Shown here: one piece after another, positions 29,158 through 36,990 of the stretch
Numbering within the stretch: the first letter of the stretch is position 1
How the letters are laid out: each line of letters starts with the position of its first letter
Source of the DNA: Atopobium sp. BS2
GTDB lineage: Bacteria; Actinomycetota; Coriobacteriia; Coriobacteriales; Atopobiaceae
Length of the DNA stretch: 37,195 nt
Assembly: GCF_000565075.1 (NCBI RefSeq)
Contig: NZ_JDFG01000034.1
Location: 1-37,195, forward strand
Direction: 5' to 3'
Position numbers and translations under genes: made by a program
The notes under the pieces: generated by a model
The model's database searches: none
What the model was told of the DNA's origin: nothing
The model's input: only the letters and a program-made list of their open reading frames with translations

Positions 29158-30536
29158 TGTTTAACAGCCTGCAAGATAGACTGCAAAATACATTTTCCGC
29201 TCTGCGCGGAAAGGGCCGTCTCACTGAGGACGATATCAATTCAGCAATGCGAGAAATTCGCATGGCTCTTCTCGAGGCTGACGTTAACTACAAGGTAGTT
29301 AAAGAGTTTGTTGGTCGCTGTAAAGAGCAGTGCATGACCGCTGACGTACTGGAGTCTCTGTCACCAGCCCAAAATGTTGTCCGCATTGTTCTGGATGAGC
29401 TCACGACACTGCTTGGTTCAACCGAGTCCAAGCTCACGCTGGCGCAGAACCGCATTCCAAACGTCATTATGCTTGTTGGTCTTCAGGGCTCCGGTAAGAC
29501 AACCGCAGCTGCAAAGCTTGCCTACTTGCTTAAGTCTCAGGGAAAGAATCCTCTGCTTGCCGCCTGCGACGTTCACCGTCCCGCAGCAGCAGATCAGCTT
29601 GAAACACTTGGTTCAGAGATTGGTGTGCCAGTCTATCGTGGAGATGGCAAAGATGCCGTTGCTATTGCGTCTCAGGCTATCCAGGAAGCTGTTGACCACC
29701 TCAACGACCTGGTGATTGTCGATACCGCTGGCCGTCTTCAAATTGACGAAGAAATGATGGAAGAGGCCGTTGCTATCAAGCGTGCCGTCAAGCCAGATCA
29801 GATTCTTATGGTTGTCGACGCCATGACCGGCCAGGATATTGTCAATGTTGTCAGCACCTTCGCCGAGCGCGTAGACTTTGACGGCGTTATCATGTCCAAG
29901 CTTGATGGCGACGCTCGTGGCGGTGGTGCCCTTTCCGTACGTGAGGTTACCGGCAAGCCTATCAAGTTTGTTTCTATGGGCGAGAAACCCGATTCACTTG
30001 AGGTTTTCCACCCAGATCGTATGGCCAAGCGCATCCTTGGCATGGGTGATGTTATCTCTATTGTCGAGAAGGCCCAACAGGCAGCAGATGAGAAGCAGGT
30101 TGAAGATGCTGAGCGCATGTTGCGTGAAGGCTTTACTATGGATGACCTGCTCAATCAGATGAACCAAATTCGCAAGATGGGCGGTCTTGCAAAGCTTATT
30201 GGTGCTCTACCTGGTGGTGACCGCATGATGGCCCAGCAGGGTGGTGTGGACGATAGTTCAATGGGAAAGATTGAAGCTATCATTCATTCCATGACCAAGG
30301 AAGAGCGTGCACGTCCAAAGATTATTAACGGTCAGCGCCGTCGTCGTATTTCCATGGGTTCTGGTCGTAGTGTTCAGGAAGTTAATCAACTTATTCGCCA
30401 GTGGGGAGAGATGAATAAGATGATGGGCAAGATGAAGGCTATGACTCAGGGCGGAAATGCAAAGAAGGGCCGTCGCGCAATGGAGTCCATGATGAAGAAT
30501 ATGGGCTTTGGCGGAGGTCAAATGCCACGTTTCTAG
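29157..30536 (+). CDS. ffh: signal recognition particle protein Ffh (SRP54)
   Basis: A 459-residue SRP54: N domain, GTPase G domain (GLQGSGKTT near 108, DTAGR near 188, SKLDGDARGG near 245) and a Met-rich M domain from about 305 that binds 4.5S RNA and signal peptides (SGRSVQEVNQLIRQW, MNKMMGKMKAM). The Met-rich tail ends GGGQMPRF. ATG overlaps the ftsY stop. No clear terminator follows; the next 108 bp are AT-rich and carry the inverted repeat at 30587-30638. Confidence 0.98.
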   Translation: MFNSLQDRLQNTFSALRGKGRLTEDDINSAMREIRMALLEADVNYKVVKEFVGRCKEQCMTADVLESLSPAQNVVRIVLDELTTLLGSTESKLTLAQNRIPNVIMLVGLQGSGKTTAAAKLAYLLKSQGKNPLLAACDVHRPAAADQLETLGSEIGVPVYRGDGKDAVAIASQAIQEAVDHLNDLVIVDTAGRLQIDEEMMEEAVAIKRAVKPDQILMVVDAMTGQDIVNVVSTFAERVDFDGVIMSKLDGDARGGGALSVREVTGKPIKFVSMGEKPDSLEVFHPDRMAKRILGMGDVISIVEKAQQAADEKQVEDAERMLREGFTMDDLLNQMNQIRKMGGLAKLIGALPGGDRMMAQQGGVDDSSMGKIEAIIHSMTKEERARPKIINGQRRRRISMGSGRSVQEVNQLIRQWGEMNKMMGKMKAMTQGGNAKKGRRAMESMMKNMGFGGGQMPRF

Positions 30537-30586
30537 GCTTTATTCATAAATATTTTTATATAAGAAATACTTTGGTTTAAGTAATA

Positions 30587-30638
30587 TCCCTACTGCATTT
30601 TGTTAAACATGGTAAACTCTCTCAAAAAGCAGTAGGGA
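30587..30638 (+). promoter_or_regulatory. inverted repeat overlapping the DUF454 ribosome-binding site
   Basis: TCCCTACTGC (30587-30596) is a perfect 10-bp inverted copy of GCAGTAGGGA (30629-30638); the arms extend 4 more bases inward with one mismatch. The right arm contains the Shine-Dalgarno (AGGGAG, 30634-30639) of the DUF454 gene starting at 30645, so a transcript begun upstream could fold and hide it. If transcription starts between the arms, the site would instead be an operator. Confidence 0.55.
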
Positions 30639-30644
30639 GTATTT

Positions 30645-31025
30645 ATGTCAATTAAACGTGTTGCCTTTATGGCACTAGGTTGTATAAGCTTGGCACTTGC
30701 TGTGCTTGGTGTAGTGCTTCCCATTTTGCCAACTGTTCCATTTTTGGCACTTGCTGCATTTTGCTTTGCAAAATCATCCGACCGACTCAATAATTGGCTT
30801 ATTAATACAAAGTTTTACCAAAATAACCTTGCTGATTTTAAAGCTGGAAAAGGGATGACTGTTAAGACTAAAACACGCATTCTTGTTACAGTAACCTTGG
30901 TCATGGCTGTAGGTCTGATTGCCATGCTTATGAAAGGCGTTATTGTTGGCAGTATTGTCCTTGTCATTGTTTGGTTAGGACACATTTACTATTTTGGATT
31001 TAAAGTTAAAACGATTAAAGAGTAA
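30645..31025 (+). CDS. DUF454 (YbaN-like) inner-membrane protein
   Basis: A 126-residue integral membrane protein. The N-terminal hydrophobic hairpin with PILPTVPFLALAAFCFAKSS (about 25-45) is the hallmark of DUF454. A short cytoplasmic stretch (KFYQNNLADFKAGKGM) and two C-terminal hydrophobic segments follow. No activity is known for the family. The ribosome-binding site AGGGAG lies inside the right arm of the inverted repeat just upstream. Sequence here is AT-richer than in the ffh operon, marking the start of the accessory stretch. Confidence 0.85.
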   Translation: MSIKRVAFMALGCISLALAVLGVVLPILPTVPFLALAAFCFAKSSDRLNNWLINTKFYQNNLADFKAGKGMTVKTKTRILVTVTLVMAVGLIAMLMKGVIVGSIVLVIVWLGHIYYFGFKVKTIKE

Positions 31026-31054
31026 ACAATTGTTACAATAGCTTCTAGTTAGTT

Positions 31055-31077
31055 TCATTATTACTAGGTAATGATGA
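31055..31077 (+). promoter_or_regulatory. inverted repeat upstream of membrane-protein gene 31086
   Basis: TCATTATTAC (31055-31064) pairs with GTAATGATGA (31068-31077) over 10 positions with one mismatch around TAG. The right arm overlaps the first bases of the ribosome-binding site GAGGTG (31076-31081). It may act as a translational hairpin or operator; evidence is only the symmetry and position. Confidence 0.4.
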
Positions 31078-31085
31078 GGTGACAG

Positions 31086-31751
31086 ATGATGCAGCGTAGG
31101 AAAAGAGTTATTGTAGGCATAATATTGTTGTCAGCTGGGCTGATAATAGGCCTAATAGTGTTCTATAAACCAAAAAATGTATCATCACTTCAGATAACAA
31201 ATTTAAAGAAATCGGCCGCACAATGTGTTGCTAGTCAACTCAACACATTTAATGATTACAGTGAAGAACTGGGGCCAGAGTATAACTATTTGAAGATAGA
31301 TAGCATCGAAGATCTTGAGATATCAGGTCCTATTTTATGTGCTACAAAAATGGAAAATGGAGATATTGCAACAACAGGACTCTTGTGGGTCATTAGTAGG
31401 AATAACAAGTTGATAGCAGTTGTTGATCAGGATATATATGCATTATCTATACTTTCAAATTTTGGATTTTCTATCAATCAAAGCATGTATCAAATGAACA
31501 TTCCTTTACTTGAAGAAATGCATACACGAGGATTACCCGTCATAAAGTGGAGTGTTCAAAATGCAAGTGGTGGAGAAATGTACCTATCAGACGGGTTGTT
31601 AGGTTCACATGCATATAACAATATTACTAATATTGGTATTAGGCAAAGTGATTCTGATTTTCCTTCTGCCAGTTCATTGATCACTTCTCGCTTAGGTTCA
31701 GAGTATCTTGATTTTATGGCAAACAAAGAGCATGTAGTGGATCTTTTATAG
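31086..31751 (+). CDS. single-pass membrane protein, paralogue A, unknown function
   Basis: A 221-residue protein that I do not recognise. A basic start (MMQRRKRV) and one hydrophobic segment (about 9-27) predict a signal anchor with an external domain of about 190 residues. It shares with the next gene the landmarks S-G-P-I-L, W-V-I-S-x-N, T-R-x-L-P and G-G-x-x-x-L-S-D, then a nearly identical last 30 residues (FPSASSLITSR ... VVDLL). Between these blocks the two are only weakly similar. ATG follows GAGGTG. Base composition and ATA codons are unlike the housekeeping genes, suggesting acquired DNA. A Cys pair (about 41 and 83) could form a disulphide. Confidence 0.7.
   Translation: MMQRRKRVIVGIILLSAGLIIGLIVFYKPKNVSSLQITNLKKSAAQCVASQLNTFNDYSEELGPEYNYLKIDSIEDLEISGPILCATKMENGDIATTGLLWVISRNNKLIAVVDQDIYALSILSNFGFSINQSMYQMNIPLLEEMHTRGLPVIKWSVQNASGGEMYLSDGLLGSHAYNNITNIGIRQSDSDFPSASSLITSRLGSEYLDFMANKEHVVDLL
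31659..31731 (+). repeat. 73-bp perfect direct repeat, copy 1 (3' end of paralogue A)
   Basis: Bases 31659-31731 are identical to 32369-32441, 710 bp downstream. They encode the shared C-terminal block of the two paralogues. Identity ends abruptly on the 5' side, and flanking bases on the 3' side are nearly identical. Confidence 0.95.
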
Positions 31752-31807
31752 GATTTTCATAAGAGCATGTTTTCGGTTTACATTCAATACAAGTGAGGCG
31801 ATTAGAC

Positions 31808-32461
31808 ATGTCACATGGTAAGAAAAGATTGTATATAACTATCAGTGCAGTAATTGTGGCATGTGTATTTATATGTATTTGGTTTAGACCGGAAGCGGTT
31901 AGGGAGCGAAACCTCGATTTTTTAAAACATCAAGCTGTGGAATTTATAAGGGAGCAATCAGCTGATAATATTTTCTCATATGAAAAGTTTGAGTCTGGAG
32001 AATATAGGACTTATACCTGCAATATGAACGACGTGTATATATCTGGTCCAATTTTATCAGTTGTAGAGAAAAACAATGAATTATTAGACGGTGGCGTTTC
32101 GTGGGTTGTAAGTGTTAATGGAGAAATCATTGGAACAATCGAGCAAGATGCCGCTTTATATTCAGTTTCTCTCTCATCACAAGATTTTGATCAATATATT
32201 CTTTATGGGACTGCTTACGTTCTGCAAGCTATAAGCACTCGCAAATTACCTGCCGTCTCCTACTATGAATACGATACAGATGGTGGAGGAACCTTTCTGT
32301 CTGATAATATACTTGCGACATTTAATTACGGCACAGGAGACTATGGTTTTGATAAAGCATTCAGCAAATTTCCTTCTGCCAGTTCATTGATCACTTCTCG
32401 CTTAGGTTCAGAGTATCTTGATTTTATGGCAAACAAAGAGCGTGTTGTGGATCTTCTGTAA
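31808..32461 (+). CDS. single-pass membrane protein, paralogue B, unknown function
   Basis: A 217-residue protein paralogous to the preceding gene and likewise unrecognised. A basic N-terminus (MSHGKKR) and a hydrophobic segment (about 8-25) are followed by a probable external domain. The start at ATG 31808 is preferred over an in-frame GTG at 31793 because GTGAGG lies about 10 nt upstream, matching the spacing logic of its paralogue. The last 30 residues differ from paralogue A at one position (His to Arg), whereas the remainder shares only scattered blocks. It converges on the L,D-transpeptidase gene across a terminator. Confidence 0.7.
   Translation: MSHGKKRLYITISAVIVACVFICIWFRPEAVRERNLDFLKHQAVEFIREQSADNIFSYEKFESGEYRTYTCNMNDVYISGPILSVVEKNNELLDGGVSWVVSVNGEIIGTIEQDAALYSVSLSSQDFDQYILYGTAYVLQAISTRKLPAVSYYEYDTDGGGTFLSDNILATFNYGTGDYGFDKAFSKFPSASSLITSRLGSEYLDFMANKERVVDLL
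32369..32441 (+). repeat. 73-bp perfect direct repeat, copy 2 (3' end of paralogue B)
   Basis: Identical to 31659-31731. Synonymous sites are identical too, so the similarity is recent at DNA level and not only selected protein conservation. Confidence 0.95.
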
Positions 32462-32472
32462 GACATAAAAAC

Positions 32473-32503
32473 GCGCGCTTCAGAATTATTTTCTAAAGCG
32501 CGC
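32473..32503. terminator. bidirectional terminator between paralogue B and the L,D-transpeptidase
   Basis: A perfect 8-bp stem, GCGCGCTT (32473-32480) and AAGCGCGC (32496-32503), around a 15-nt loop. On the minus strand the stem is followed by G then TTTTT, a good terminator for the L,D-transpeptidase gene. On the plus strand an AT-rich tract follows, which may end the paralogue transcripts. Confidence 0.85.
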
Positions 32504-32527
32504 ATAAATATATTTTCTAAGAAAAAC

Positions 32528-34207
32528 CTAGTAGTGGATGATAATTGGATCTCCATCTTTGGCGATATCAAAGAGTTTTTGAGCGTTTTCATAGCTTAGG
32601 TTGATGCAGCCATGACTACCGCCTGTTCTGTAGATGTTTCCACCAAACGCACTTCTCCATGGAGCGTTGTGAAAACCAACTTCCTGACCTTTTACACCCA
32701 ACCAGAAGTCAACGTGTGCATCCCAACCTGGTTTGCCATTCTCGTCATTTGGTCCCAGGAGACGAGCGTCTCTAATGTGGCTGGTAATATACCAGACTCC
32801 TTCCGGAGTGTTGTGATGTCCGTCTGGGATACCTGTTACTACATCGGCTTCCCAAAGAATAGTTCCATCATCACCATAAAGAACAGCATGCTGAGTGGTA
32901 AGGTCAACGTCAATATAACGACCGCCCCAGTCCTGCTCGCCCTGTTTAGTAAATTTATCGGCCGACTGTTTTGTAGGTAGTTCAATCTTTGTTGCCTGAC
33001 CAGCGGACAGACCGTCAGAGATAGCTTTTACAGCAGCATCATTATCAATAACCCAACCGTATGCACCAGCGGCCTTTGTAGTGAATTCTTTTCCATCCCA
33101 ACGCTTATACGTTCTTGAAGTTCCACGAGTATCTACTGCAGGAGCAAGTGTCTCGTTGACCCATTTGGTAATAGCGTCTGTATCAAATGAAATAGAGAGA
33201 TTCTCATCAAACTTAATCCAGCTAGCAATGGTGTCTTGATCAAGCTGATATGCGGCAGAATCGCCAAGCATCAAATCAACTGCAGAAGCAACGTATGAAT
33301 TAGCGGTCTTCAAAGCAGAATCAAGGTCTTCTGCACTTATGAGGCTCTCTGGGCCAAGCTGTACGGTAGTGCTCAGATTATCAAAAGCGGTTTGCAAGTC
33401 TTTATGGACACCCTCAAGAGATAGTCTTGTAGCAATAGCGTCGTCGGCAAAAATAAACTTTTTAGCCGAGCTATCGTAGGTAATACCATTGTTCTCTAGA
33501 GTTTGAGCAGATTCTTTTGCCTGCTCGATTCTTTGATTAAAGAGTGCGTCTGCCTTGCTTGTATCATACGAAGCGGTAGCGTGAGGGCTTAGGGACCTGC
33601 TGCGAGTAAGCTCCAGTGGCCACATCCAAGGATTCTGCTGGCTAATAGCATCGTGAGCATATCCAGCTGCGTCGTACGTCAAATCAATGTCGGATGCCTT
33701 GATGGTTAAATCTACGCCGTTTCCAGAGACTTGGACGGAGTAATTTGAGGCCTCGTTTGCTCTAGAAGCTTGTAAATCTGAAGCAGGTTTTAAGGAGTAG
33801 TCCTTACCATAAATGCTGGTTTGAGGCATAAAGAAGAAGTTAAAGAAGATTGCTCCACCCACATACACAAGGGCGAGAATACCAACGAGCGCAGCAGGTA
33901 TCTTCCACCACTGATGTTTCTTGTGAACAACGGGAGCCTCTTCTTTTTCTCCAAGCTCTGCGCTATCAAGAGGAGCAATGACAGTTAAATCATCTGCCTG
34001 CTCTTCTGGGGCCTCTGTAGCTTGTGAAGGCTCATTGAGCTGATTGGCTTTTACCTGCTCTTCATTGAGAGCAACGTACATATCAGTATCGCCAAGGCTT
34101 GGTACTGAGTCTTTAAGAGAAGGCGCTTTCTCTGTAGCTTCCTCTGAAGAAAGAGGTTGTAGGTTAGCGGTATGAGAAGCAGAGCTTTTTGCAAAGTGCT
34201 TAGCCAA
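32528..34207 (-). CDS. L,D-transpeptidase (YkuD) with peptidoglycan-binding domain
   Basis: A 559-residue membrane-anchored cell-wall enzyme. An acidic cytoplasmic tail of about 95 residues is followed by HKKHQWW and a membrane segment (about 102-125). An external PG-binding-4-like region comes next, then the YkuD domain (from DVDLTTQHAVLY) with the catalytic motif FHNAPW ... TGGSHGCINLS. Such enzymes form 3-3 peptidoglycan cross-links or attach proteins to the wall. The start is placed at TTG (34205-34207) because AAGGAG is 6 nt upstream; an ATG 30 nt further out has no ribosome-binding site. It is leftward, alone, with its own terminator at 32473-32503. Confidence 0.92.
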   Translation of the reverse strand: MAKHFAKSSASHTANLQPLSSEEATEKAPSLKDSVPSLGDTDMYVALNEEQVKANQLNEPSQATEAPEEQADDLTVIAPLDSAELGEKEEAPVVHKKHQWWKIPAALVGILALVYVGGAIFFNFFFMPQTSIYGKDYSLKPASDLQASRANEASNYSVQVSGNGVDLTIKASDIDLTYDAAGYAHDAISQQNPWMWPLELTRSRSLSPHATASYDTSKADALFNQRIEQAKESAQTLENNGITYDSSAKKFIFADDAIATRLSLEGVHKDLQTAFDNLSTTVQLGPESLISAEDLDSALKTANSYVASAVDLMLGDSAAYQLDQDTIASWIKFDENLSISFDTDAITKWVNETLAPAVDTRGTSRTYKRWDGKEFTTKAAGAYGWVIDNDAAVKAISDGLSAGQATKIELPTKQSADKFTKQGEQDWGGRYIDVDLTTQHAVLYGDDGTILWEADVVTGIPDGHHNTPEGVWYITSHIRDARLLGPNDENGKPGWDAHVDFWLGVKGQEVGFHNAPWRSAFGGNIYRTGGSHGCINLSYENAQKLFDIAKDGDPIIIHY

Positions 34208-34343
34208 GGAGCACTCCTTATAAGAACGAAGGTACATAACAAGAAGTAATGCAATTTGAAAACAACAAACTAATAAGCTTTCACACTTATCTTTTTATTC
34301 TAGTTCATATGCAACACATATTTTTGTGGAACTTATGAGGAAT

Positions 34344-34364
34344 TATATATTCAGAGAATATATA
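34344..34364. promoter_or_regulatory. AT-rich 21-bp inverted repeat between ldt and the surface-protein gene
   Basis: TATATATTC (34344-34352) and GAATATATA (34356-34364) are perfect inverted arms around AGA. The site is in the 229-bp divergent region, 73 bp before the surface-protein ATG, and resembles a dimeric repressor operator. No clear promoter could be assigned to either gene in this AT-rich stretch; nothing else is evident in it. Confidence 0.4.
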
Positions 34365-34436
34365 GATATTTGAATATACTTTTGATTTAGACTTTTTTAA
34401 ACAATGATTTGATTTAGGAAGGGAGTGTGGAAATAG

Positions 34437-36089
34437 ATGAGATTGATAAATTCTCAAACTAGTTTTAAAAAATTTAAATGTGCAGTTACCTTGCTTGTTA
34501 TTTTATGTGTATTTATTTCATACATTCCTGCTCCTGTTTTAGCAAACACTTTATTAGGACAAACAAACTCAAATCAATTGTTATTGCATACAGAGATTAA
34601 ATCATTTAATCCATCTGCATCTGATTTCACTACAGTTGTAGGAAATGATTTAGGTTCTCTGGATAATTTGACAGAAATTAAGCCCTACGAAGAGCCAATA
34701 ACAACATCACATCTTGATTTACAAAAAGTTACTGACTTTCATTTTTTAGATAGCGATCGGTTTGACCCATCACTTTTTTCAGATGATCATGAATTGCGTT
34801 ATACAACCGATGAAGCTGCTGTTAATTCTTATCTACAAGCACATCCTAATCTTGCAGGTGTTACTGATCATAAAATTTTGCTTCCTGTTTTTGAATTCGA
34901 TACAGACAATAACATTCAGGCTCATAGAGACATAATTAATAACTATATTTCAAATGGCCAACTAATTAATGGATCTGTTGGTCAAGACAATGTTGCCATT
35001 ATTGATCGCAGTATACCTTTGGGTGAGTATAAGCTGGATAAAACTCTGTCCTACGATCAAGAGCATGGTTTTTACTATATTTATACTGTTCGTGCTGGAG
35101 TTTCAGATATTTCAAGGAACCTTACTACATTTGTTGATAGCAATGGAAATAGAACTGAGAAACAAGGTCTGTACGACGCACCTACAACAATTGGTAATAG
35201 CATTCTTGATCATAAAGAAGTAGAGCAGTATGTAATTCCTGAAGCCCATGATGGTGATGGAAATATTGTTAAGCCTAATATTTTTGTTACACACACAACG
35301 TATTACTATACTTTGGCGCATACTGCATATGTTACCGATACTGGAGAAACTTTGAGACCTACAGATGAGGGTCTTCAAAATGCTCCAGCAACAATCTCAT
35401 CGTATACTTTTAATCATACCGTTGATGCAGGACGTAAAAAAGTTTTAGACATCGATACGGTTACAAATAGGATTTTATCTGATATTAAATCTCAAGATAT
35501 TGCTGATGTATTTCCAGAAAGTTCGGCAACTCACGCTGGACAAATAGGCATTAAAAAGTTGCCTGATTCTACTTACGAAGTTTCTTTATTTGAGAACGGT
35601 AGTCTTACTACTGATCTAACATATAATCCTGACGGATCTCCACGAGTAGTTGATGCTGAAGGAAATCCCGTATATTTCTCAAATACTTTTAATGACATTG
35701 TATATACGTATTCTCAAGATAACACTCTTCCTATAGGCCAATATAAAATTGAGTATTTCTTGCTCCCAATGTCTTTTGATCCCAATACGCTTGATTCTTA
35801 TCAACACTTAAAGATCAATCTTGTAATTGGAACAAAGGATTCTAATGAGCAAACTATTGCAGCTAATTGGACTCATGTGTACGTAAAACAACCTCCTGTC
35901 ACACCAGTAACTCCTGGTTCTAACACTCCTGGAGAACCCCATAAGACAGAGGAAAAGGCGCAGCTTCCTGATACAGCTGACAATTCCCAAATTGTATTGC
36001 AGGGTACACTTATAAGCTTGTCTGCCATCTTGGTTTTGTTAGGTTACTTCCTTAAAAAGAGACTAGCAACAGAGGAAATTTTTTCATAA
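34437..36089 (+). CDS. sortase-anchored cell-surface protein (LPDTA)
   Basis: A 550-residue exported wall protein. Signal peptide: basic KKFKC, hydrophobic core about 17-30, likely cleavage after PAPVLA (near residue 36). Near the C-terminus a Pro-rich spacer (TPVTPGSNTPGEP) leads to the sortase motif LPDTA (510-514), a hydrophobic segment and the KKR tail. The middle contains two similar units (TTFVDSNGNRTEKQGLYDAP and TAYVTDTGETLRPTDEG...APATI, about 60 residues apart) reminiscent of MucBP/SHIRT-like adhesin modules. It is AT-rich compared with neighbours, typical of host-interaction genes under exchange. No sortase gene is in the window. The ligand is unknown. Confidence 0.85.
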   Translation: MRLINSQTSFKKFKCAVTLLVILCVFISYIPAPVLANTLLGQTNSNQLLLHTEIKSFNPSASDFTTVVGNDLGSLDNLTEIKPYEEPITTSHLDLQKVTDFHFLDSDRFDPSLFSDDHELRYTTDEAAVNSYLQAHPNLAGVTDHKILLPVFEFDTDNNIQAHRDIINNYISNGQLINGSVGQDNVAIIDRSIPLGEYKLDKTLSYDQEHGFYYIYTVRAGVSDISRNLTTFVDSNGNRTEKQGLYDAPTTIGNSILDHKEVEQYVIPEAHDGDGNIVKPNIFVTHTTYYYTLAHTAYVTDTGETLRPTDEGLQNAPATISSYTFNHTVDAGRKKVLDIDTVTNRILSDIKSQDIADVFPESSATHAGQIGIKKLPDSTYEVSLFENGSLTTDLTYNPDGSPRVVDAEGNPVYFSNTFNDIVYTYSQDNTLPIGQYKIEYFLLPMSFDPNTLDSYQHLKINLVIGTKDSNEQTIAANWTHVYVKQPPVTPVTPGSNTPGEPHKTEEKAQLPDTADNSQIVLQGTLISLSAILVLLGYFLKKRLATEEIFS

Positions 36090-36156
36090 ACGCGGTTTAA
36101 CTTTTGTCTCAAGAGTAGAAAATATTAAGAATCAAGAGGCAAGGGGAACATTGCTT

Positions 36157-36990
36157 ATGTCTACGTATCCAGTTATTTATTTAGATTCATCTGACGACAA
36201 TCGTCTTGATGTGTATGCCCGATTGACTGATAACCAGCTTCGTAATCGTCTTGACCCAACTCGTGGCGTCATGATTTGTGAGTCTCATTTTGTGATTGAA
36301 ACTGCGCTATCTGCAGGCTGTGAGCCAATCTCATTTCTTGCAAATACTTCTCATACAGATAACATTTTGCAAATTGTCGAGAAGTTCCATCCTTTGTCAG
36401 ATGATGTTCCTATTTTCATTCTTCCAGATGAGCAGCTTACACAGCTTATTGGCTACAAGATGAATAGAGGAGTGCTCTGTGCCATGAGGAGACCTCAAGG
36501 TGCATCGCTAGAAGAGATTCTAAGCACGTCAAAGCATATTGCCGTACTAGAAGATTTAGTAGACGTTAACAACGTTGGTGCTGTCTTTAGGTCAGCTGCG
36601 GCCCTCAATGTAGATGCTGTTATCTTGACTGCTAAGTGCGCCGACAACCTCTCAAGGCGTGTCCTGCGCGTTTCTATGGGAACGGTTCTTAATGTGCCTT
36701 GGACTCGTTTGGATGAAGAGATAACTTCACTGGACCTTATTGAAAAGCTTAAAGCTCATTCTTTTACTACGTGTGCACTTGCACTCACAGATTCTGCAGT
36801 ACCTCTTAATAAAGAGCTGGTAAAAGGTAAAAAAGCAGCACTATTCTTTGGTAGTGAAGGCTATGGTCTTGATAAGAAAACCATTGAGGCTTGTGACATT
36901 ATCACCATCATTCCCATGTCTCATCAGGTGGACTCGCTTAATGTTGCTGCGTCATCTGCCGTGGCATTTTGGGAACTTTTTGCTCGATAA
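36157..36990 (+). CDS. TrmH/SpoU-family RNA methyltransferase
   Basis: A 277-residue SPOUT-fold 2'-O-methyltransferase. The three SpoU motifs are intact: DLVDVNNVGAVFRSAAA (about 132-148; catalytic Arg), FFGSEGYGL (about 230) and IPMSHQVDSLNVAASSAVAFWE (about 251). An N-terminal substrate-binding extension of about 110 residues is present. RNA target (23S rRNA or tRNA) cannot be told from sequence. ATG at 36157 with AAGGGG upstream is favoured over TTG 36151. It ends 52 bp before the right copy of the 93-bp hairpin repeat, which may terminate its transcript. Confidence 0.92.
   Translation: MSTYPVIYLDSSDDNRLDVYARLTDNQLRNRLDPTRGVMICESHFVIETALSAGCEPISFLANTSHTDNILQIVEKFHPLSDDVPIFILPDEQLTQLIGYKMNRGVLCAMRRPQGASLEEILSTSKHIAVLEDLVDVNNVGAVFRSAAALNVDAVILTAKCADNLSRRVLRVSMGTVLNVPWTRLDEEITSLDLIEKLKAHSFTTCALALTDSAVPLNKELVKGKKAALFFGSEGYGLDKKTIEACDIITIIPMSHQVDSLNVAASSAVAFWELFAR

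Follow-up and report, generated by a model that had tools for sequence, protein, structure and literature searches.

Genes A and B and their shared 3' end

The window analysed here, a stretch of 37,195 nucleotides from Atopobium sp. BS2 (contig NZ_JDFG01000034.1, positions 1 to 37,195), contains two adjacent genes on the same strand, hereafter A and B (Table 1). They are flanked by a DUF454 gene and a convergent L,D-transpeptidase gene, giving the order ffh-DUF454-[A,B]-transpeptidase (locus 1). The longest exact DNA match between A and B spans 73 bp near their 3' ends, and the final 30 residues of the two proteins differ at a single position (H versus R). A preliminary description of the pair had reported diverged bodies, 73 bp identical including silent sites, and one difference in the last 30 residues, and all of these features are confirmed. 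It had also described the bodies as sharing only scattered motifs. The bodies are indeed diverged, but this wording understates their homology: local alignment of the bodies with the tail removed scores 152, whereas 1000 shuffles average 30 and reach at most 50. By this measure the bodies are true but very diverged paralogues, with approximately 2 synonymous substitutions per synonymous site (dS), which is near saturation, and approximately 0.8 nonsynonymous substitutions per nonsynonymous site (dN).

The tail is strikingly different at silent sites. With amino acids fixed, independent codon choice would coincide over the 24 whole codons of the 73-bp block with a probability of 1.1e-10 to 1.4e-10, and the observation of zero silent changes in ~16 silent sites has a probability of 4e-9 at the rate of the A-B bodies. 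A fixed 24-codon window beginning two codons before the block has one silent and four other differences there. The last eight codons of A and B, still inside the conserved end, are diverged at silent sites (3 of ~5.7). Additional copies of the tail, proposed in the preliminary description as a check on exchange, are absent from this genome, where the block occurs in two places only, but the identical block is present in a gene of a sister species (G2B).

The genome of Atopobium sp. BS2 (1.60 Mb, 49 contigs) encodes four members of the family, organized in two tandem pairs. The second pair, C and D, is located between uvrC-like and oppA-like genes, named by reading of their proteins, in the order uvrC-[C,D]-oppA (locus 2). 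The genome of the sister species (G002), which we infer to be Lancefieldella (Atopobium) parvula, has two members, one per locus: G2B, whose protein is 83% identical to B, at the ffh-DUF454-X-transpeptidase locus, and E at the uvrC-X-oppA locus. Thus, both loci contain two genes in Atopobium sp. BS2 and one gene in the sister species. The open reading frames (ORFs) of all six copies are intact.

Table 1. Features of the A-B locus and location of the second tandem pair. Coordinates refer to the window, except for the genes on L015.
Feature	Coordinates	Strand	Description
Gene A	31086..31751	+	221 aa; N-terminal hydrophobic segment at residues ~8-26, remainder of ~190 aa, family C-terminal motif
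Gene B	31808..32461	+	217 aa from ATG; paralogue of A; alternative GTG start at 31793
73-bp 3' block, A copy	31659..31731	+	Longest exact DNA match with B
73-bp 3' block, B copy	32369..32441	+	Same letters also in sister-species gene G2B
5' block of A, comprising a ribosome-binding-like stretch, the start and the first codons	31075..31111	+	37 bp, 89% identical to the 5' end of D (locus 2)
DUF454 membrane protein	30645..31025	+	Directly upstream of A; Pfam
Terminator-like hairpin	32471..32505	called on minus strand	Between B and the convergent L,D-transpeptidase gene; 1 found versus 1.3 expected from shuffles, i.e. not above expectation
Gene C	L015:5083-5730		Second tandem pair, between uvrC-like and oppA-like genes
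Gene D	L015:5929-6579		Second tandem pair, between uvrC-like and oppA-like genes

Exchange between the paralogues

The pattern of locus 1 recurs at locus 2. The C and D genes share 68 bp of exact match near the 3' end, at the same gene position as in A and B. The dS value is 1.1 in the C-D bodies and 0 in 24 codons of the tail, and zero silent changes in 13 sites have a probability of 1.4e-5. The 5' ends of C and D are also similar; in the first two windows of 25 columns, DNA identity is 90 and 94%. The tails of the two loci belong to distinct types; A and C have the same base at 32 of 60 positions.

The sister-species gene E combines segments similar to C and to D. Its 144 informative sites form 27 runs, whereas 20,000 shuffles give 72 runs on average and never fewer than 48. 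Along the alignment, it is C-like in columns 58-85, D-like in columns 86-121, C-like in columns 122-150, and D-like from column 151 onward, which makes three internal switches. In the segments 58-85, 86-121, 122-150 and 151-200, dS is 0.06-0.19 to the nearer parent and at least 0.65 to the other one. The parents are indistinguishable in columns 1-57 (dS of 0.30 to both), and the first codons of E are closer to D than to C. Judged from this alignment, E is a C/D mosaic, which provides direct evidence for exchange between paralogues. In the tail, C is identical to D, whereas E differs from both at five silent positions, which fits homogenization of the C and D tails inside the Atopobium sp. BS2 genome. 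The preliminary description suggested that the 3' ends had undergone gene conversion or module exchange; this is supported by a second homogenized pair, a mosaic gene, and a difference in copy number at both loci.

At locus 1, the tails of A, B and G2B are identical over all 73 bp. The upstream flank of G2B and its first 11 bases match A, and its body from residue ~26 is that of B. Such a combination of an A-like start and a B-like body fits the product that unequal crossing-over between two 5' ends would give. The flanks of both single sister-species genes match the outer flanks of the respective pairs, which is expected from position alone; therefore, the informative parts are the A-like start and B-like body of G2B and the switches of E together with its D-like end. 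Each of the two is compatible with a combination of unequal crossing-over and conversion in a tandem pair.

The median dS between the two species is 0.48 over 43 ORF pairs. The body of B differs from that of G2B with a dS of 0.16, compared to ~0.45-0.52 in the leftward neighbours (~0.5 for smc, ftsY and ffh; P = 4e-6 for the B body at dS 0.48). The low value hints at exchange between species. Other nearby genes also have a low dS of 0.18-0.22 (P = 0.14 for the B body at dS 0.22), and one small minus-strand ORF has 0.02; for this reason we do not claim such exchange.

Conservation of the tail could have other causes than DNA exchange. The preliminary description had also considered selection for a common C-terminal end, and such selection is evident: conservation in the family is strongest at the C-terminal motif RLGxExLDFMANxE, with 15 of the 32 invariant columns located in the last 30 of 229, and amino-acid identity between the loci is 52-64% in alignment columns 201-225 versus 12-41% in columns 26-200. 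Protein-level selection for a C-terminal motif or tag, acting without DNA exchange, is nevertheless refuted as the sole cause and has very little left in its favour, because silent sites are identical over 24 codons next to bodies with nearly saturated silent sites (P ~1e-10), the last eight codons are silently diverged inside the same conserved end, and the two tail types are far apart at the DNA level. It is true as a part of the cause, and selection on the C-terminal end and recombination are both at work. Alternatively, the 73-bp DNA itself could be functional as a regulatory RNA, a promoter or a site-specific recombination site. The identity of the block in A, B and G2B and the silent changes that start again right after it agree with such a function, but we consider it very improbable. 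Folding of the block is ordinary, with z of 0.03 on one strand and -0.06 on the other; two longer stretches have z of 1.32 and 1.82. The Rfam search over positions 30400-34500 gave no match at the gathering score and two matches below it. The tail at locus 2 is another sequence, in which E silently differs from C and D. No integrase or recombinase was recognized among the ORFs around either pair, which were inspected by eye without a profile search, and the block has only two copies in the genome.

Distribution, architecture and possible role of the family

No family matches were found in the other three studied genomes of the genus. The profile search identified members in two of 140 genomes of the taxonomic family, Atopobium sp. 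BS2 included. Among 395 genomes of the order, six had matches at E-value 0.05 or better, namely the two known genomes and four with partial matches (E-values 0.012-0.05); among 396 genomes of the phylum, an overlapping set, four had matches, the two known genomes and two with partial ones (E-values 0.003 and 0.025). Full-length matches in both sets were limited to the two known genomes. Of the six weak partial matches only the best one (L044, E-value 0.003) was inspected; it is a short membrane protein encoded between RsmH-like and penicillin-binding-protein-like genes, FtsL-like by its position, and was rejected. No member was found by two short-peptide-pattern scans of genome contigs, by peptide-pattern and 30-base-pattern scans of viral contigs, or by tblastn of B against phages and plasmids; all of these sets may exclude very near genomes. 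In agreement with the earlier statement that neither protein belongs to a recognized family, none of the six proteins has a match above the cut-off in Pfam and NCBIfam. Only weak matches were obtained in PHROG and PADLOC (best E-values 0.032 and 0.029, respectively), and the single row of the PDB sequence search (E-value 0.76) was rejected. Among the papers listed from the open-licence PubMed Central literature on Atopobium with gene conversion, tandem paralogues, recombination and immunity, none describes this family. This is a small lineage-restricted family, undescribed as far as the searched libraries go.

In all six proteins, the N-terminus is basic and a single strong hydrophobic segment lies between residues 7 and 29; ~190 residues follow it. 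Their hydropathy and charge suggest a protein that is probably anchored in the membrane at the N-terminus, with an outward-facing domain. The dN/dS ratio of B versus G2B is 0.41, the second highest of the 43 ORF pairs (median 0.05); the highest value belongs to a 128-aa minus-strand ORF that overlaps its neighbour. Given this ratio, the family evolves fast at the protein level, by either relaxed or diversifying selection, which these data do not separate.

AlphaFold2 models were built from the two window proteins alone; they share an input alignment and so are not independent. The mean predicted local distance difference test score (pLDDT) is 67.5 for B and 64.5 for A. In both models, the anchor helix is followed by at least one further helix and a strand meander, then by a helix, another strand meander, and short helices at the C-terminus. 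At E-value 0.001, Foldseek found no match in PDB for A or B, and no match in the viral structure library for B, the only protein compared to it. When the two ectodomain halves were aligned by hhalign, no internal repeat was supported. A TseB/PepSY-like architecture was considered and rejected; no match to the TseB family was found in 40 genomes, and the family is absent from the Pfam results for these proteins. In the VIA comparison, the first row for both models was prostaphopain B (1x9y), with a Z-score of 5.7 and a root-mean-square deviation of 4.3 over 137 residues for B (next row, Z 4.8), and with a Z-score of 4.9 and a deviation of 4.3 over 139 residues for A (next row, Z 3.0). The matched residues ~49-211 of 1x9y presumably constitute the inhibitory proregion.

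The homogenized 3' ends of 73 and 68 bp, the mosaic gene E, and the difference in copy number between the species demonstrate, at the level of sequence comparison, homologous recombination within the family. We think it likely that A, B and their relatives form a tandem paralogue family, in which ordinary homologous recombination homogenizes the ends and the domain that probably faces outward diverges. In this model the short similar 5' and 3' ends would serve as homology blocks, or recombination handles. The 5' end would encode the anchor and the 3' end the conserved C-terminal motif, both being at the same time handles at the DNA level. Unequal crossing-over and gene conversion through these ends could expand, collapse and reshuffle the variable bodies, leaving the anchor and the motif unbroken. 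Within each pair, the two bodies are more diverged than the two species are in most of the compared genes, so the simplest history is one of old pairs that were reduced to single genes in the sister lineage; acquisition of the extra copies in the Atopobium sp. BS2 lineage is an alternative history.

Several observations weigh against this model. Residues ~5-25 of G2B are close to neither A nor B, and neither G2B nor E is explained by a single crossing-over. The direction and date of the A-B conversion cannot be told, since three locus-1 genes share the tail. The 73-bp identity of B and G2B is only mildly unusual given the silent rate of the B body (P = 0.08 at dS 0.16, and 0.0009 at dS 0.48), so we make no claim of DNA-level constraint. 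The membrane topology is predicted from hydropathy and charge alone. The sample comprises two species with one genome each, in which no strain-level exchange was seen. Reading the ORFs beside either pair by eye, we recognized no toxin, protease or other partner, and no LXG protein scored above the family cut-off in the five genus genomes, which leaves an immunity function without a partner.

For the role of the recombining family, several readings can be compared. The ectodomain might be a binding or inhibitor domain, perhaps most similar to a surface-anchored immunity protein, so that a changed body would change the partner that is neutralized; we offer this tentatively, as the foremost candidate for the function. 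The same modest weight is given to a membrane-anchored immunity protein array like that of TipC, with orphan or tandem copies guarding against toxins of competitors in the oral community. The predicted order of one anchor helix, then helix, strands, helix, strands and helices agrees with it. Against it are the lack of a Pfam or NCBIfam match over the cut-off, the weakness of the PADLOC and PHROG matches, the absence of a recognized adjacent toxin gene, and the absence of LXG genes above the cut-off in this genome and four other genomes of the genus. The latter result refers to PF04740, for which the Bacillus subtilis control was positive; other toxin classes were not searched. Three weak LXG matches below the cut-off were found in G002 and G003. 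One of them was inspected (L047 in the sister genome, E-value 5e-4) and rejected, as it is a coiled-coil stretch of a large membrane protein encoded beside an ABC ATPase gene (by eye). The TipC structure 6DHX is not among the rows listed when these moderate-confidence models were compared to PDB folds in four runs, with 33 to 50 rows per run. We further speculate, with some more reserve, that A and B are founding members of a hitherto undescribed Coriobacteriia family whose products act as surface-anchored immunity proteins or inhibitors; recombination via the shared ends would reshuffle them to track the changing toxins or proteases of neighbouring bacteria in the oral community.

The remaining two readings appear unlikely. 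The genes could be neutral lineage-specific paralogues without a particular role, their ends homogenized by chance conversion; this would agree with the presence of the family in two species only and with the high dN/dS of B and G2B for this genome pair. The intact frames of all six copies, dN/dS below 1, and the strongly conserved C-terminal motif retained at both loci make it improbable. Somewhat more doubtful still is a membrane-anchored domain that resembles a protease inhibitor and is folded like the staphopain proregion, although 1x9y ranks at the top for both predicted models and covers most of the ectodomain. The Z-scores are below 8, in the range of common arrangements, and the next row for B is tied; the two models are not independent and have pLDDT of 64-68; and the sequence identity is 8-14%. 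Family PF14731 is absent from the Pfam matches of the six proteins up to E-value 10, and it has no match over the cut-off in the five genus genomes, with one match below the cut-off (E-value 0.26, G004). No peptidase C47 match was found in the same five genomes, a search in which the control genomes also gave none. In short, the likeness to the staphopain B proregion is limited to the top structural row for both predicted models, with Z-scores below 6, no matching sequence, no C47 protease found, and a membrane anchor in place of a secreted zymogen.

The closest published parallel for the recombining family is streptococcal tipC, at the level of gene evolution; membership in the TipC family is not implied. 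TipC is a membrane-anchored, outward-facing immunity protein with an ectodomain of ~180 aa, directed against the type VII secretion system toxin TelC (PMC6193138), and in tipC genes the blocks near both gene ends flank a variable centre, with recombination passing through them (PMC9484751). The tipC arrays have tandem paralogues, similar end blocks, a variable centre and inter-copy recombination in common with the family, for which an N-terminal anchor and an ectodomain of similar size are also predicted. In contrast to tipC arrays, no toxin gene was recognized beside the pairs, no LXG protein exceeds the cut-off, and no family match was found; each locus has two copies, and the host is a relative of Lancefieldella (Coriobacteriia) rather than a streptococcus. 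In Staphylococcus aureus, the copy number of the esaG immunity genes and of the lpl tandem lipoprotein genes is reported to be altered by homologous recombination via conserved blocks of ~55-130 bp (PMC9484751). The change of copy number through conserved blocks is the common feature; the blocks are located elsewhere in those genes (central in lpl; 5', central and 3' in esaG), and the proteins studied here have one hydrophobic anchor.

The family is new, and its mode of evolution is already known: the mode of staphylococcal and streptococcal arrays is met here in an unrelated lineage, in a family without relatives in the searched libraries. This suggests that short ends shared between genes could be a widespread means of diversifying anchored binding domains, and the family is worth testing in interbacterial competition among oral bacteria.

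Neighbouring genes of the two loci

The DUF454 gene is present beside locus 1 in both Atopobium sp. BS2 and the sister species. In the other three genomes of the genus, no ORF of at least 100 aa lies between ffh and the transpeptidase-like gene at locus 1, the transpeptidase gene being the next such ORF after ffh (by eye); after uvrC, the next ORF of at least 100 aa is either oppA-like or an unrelated large gene (by eye). For gene B, the GTG at 31793 is a less likely start than the ATG at 31808, because a ribosome-binding-like GAGGCG stretch is located between them.

To the right of B, the L,D-transpeptidase gene (32528-34237) and an RNA-methyltransferase-like gene (36151-36990, by eye) have a dS of 1.85 and 1.24 between the species. 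Because these values are far above the median of 0.48, the DNA immediately to the right of B may mark the start of a foreign or old allelic block. The ORF at 34437-36089 encodes a 550-aa surface-protein-like product that ends with an LPDTA-type sorting signal and has weak Pfam matches (Gram_pos_anchor, E-value 0.14).
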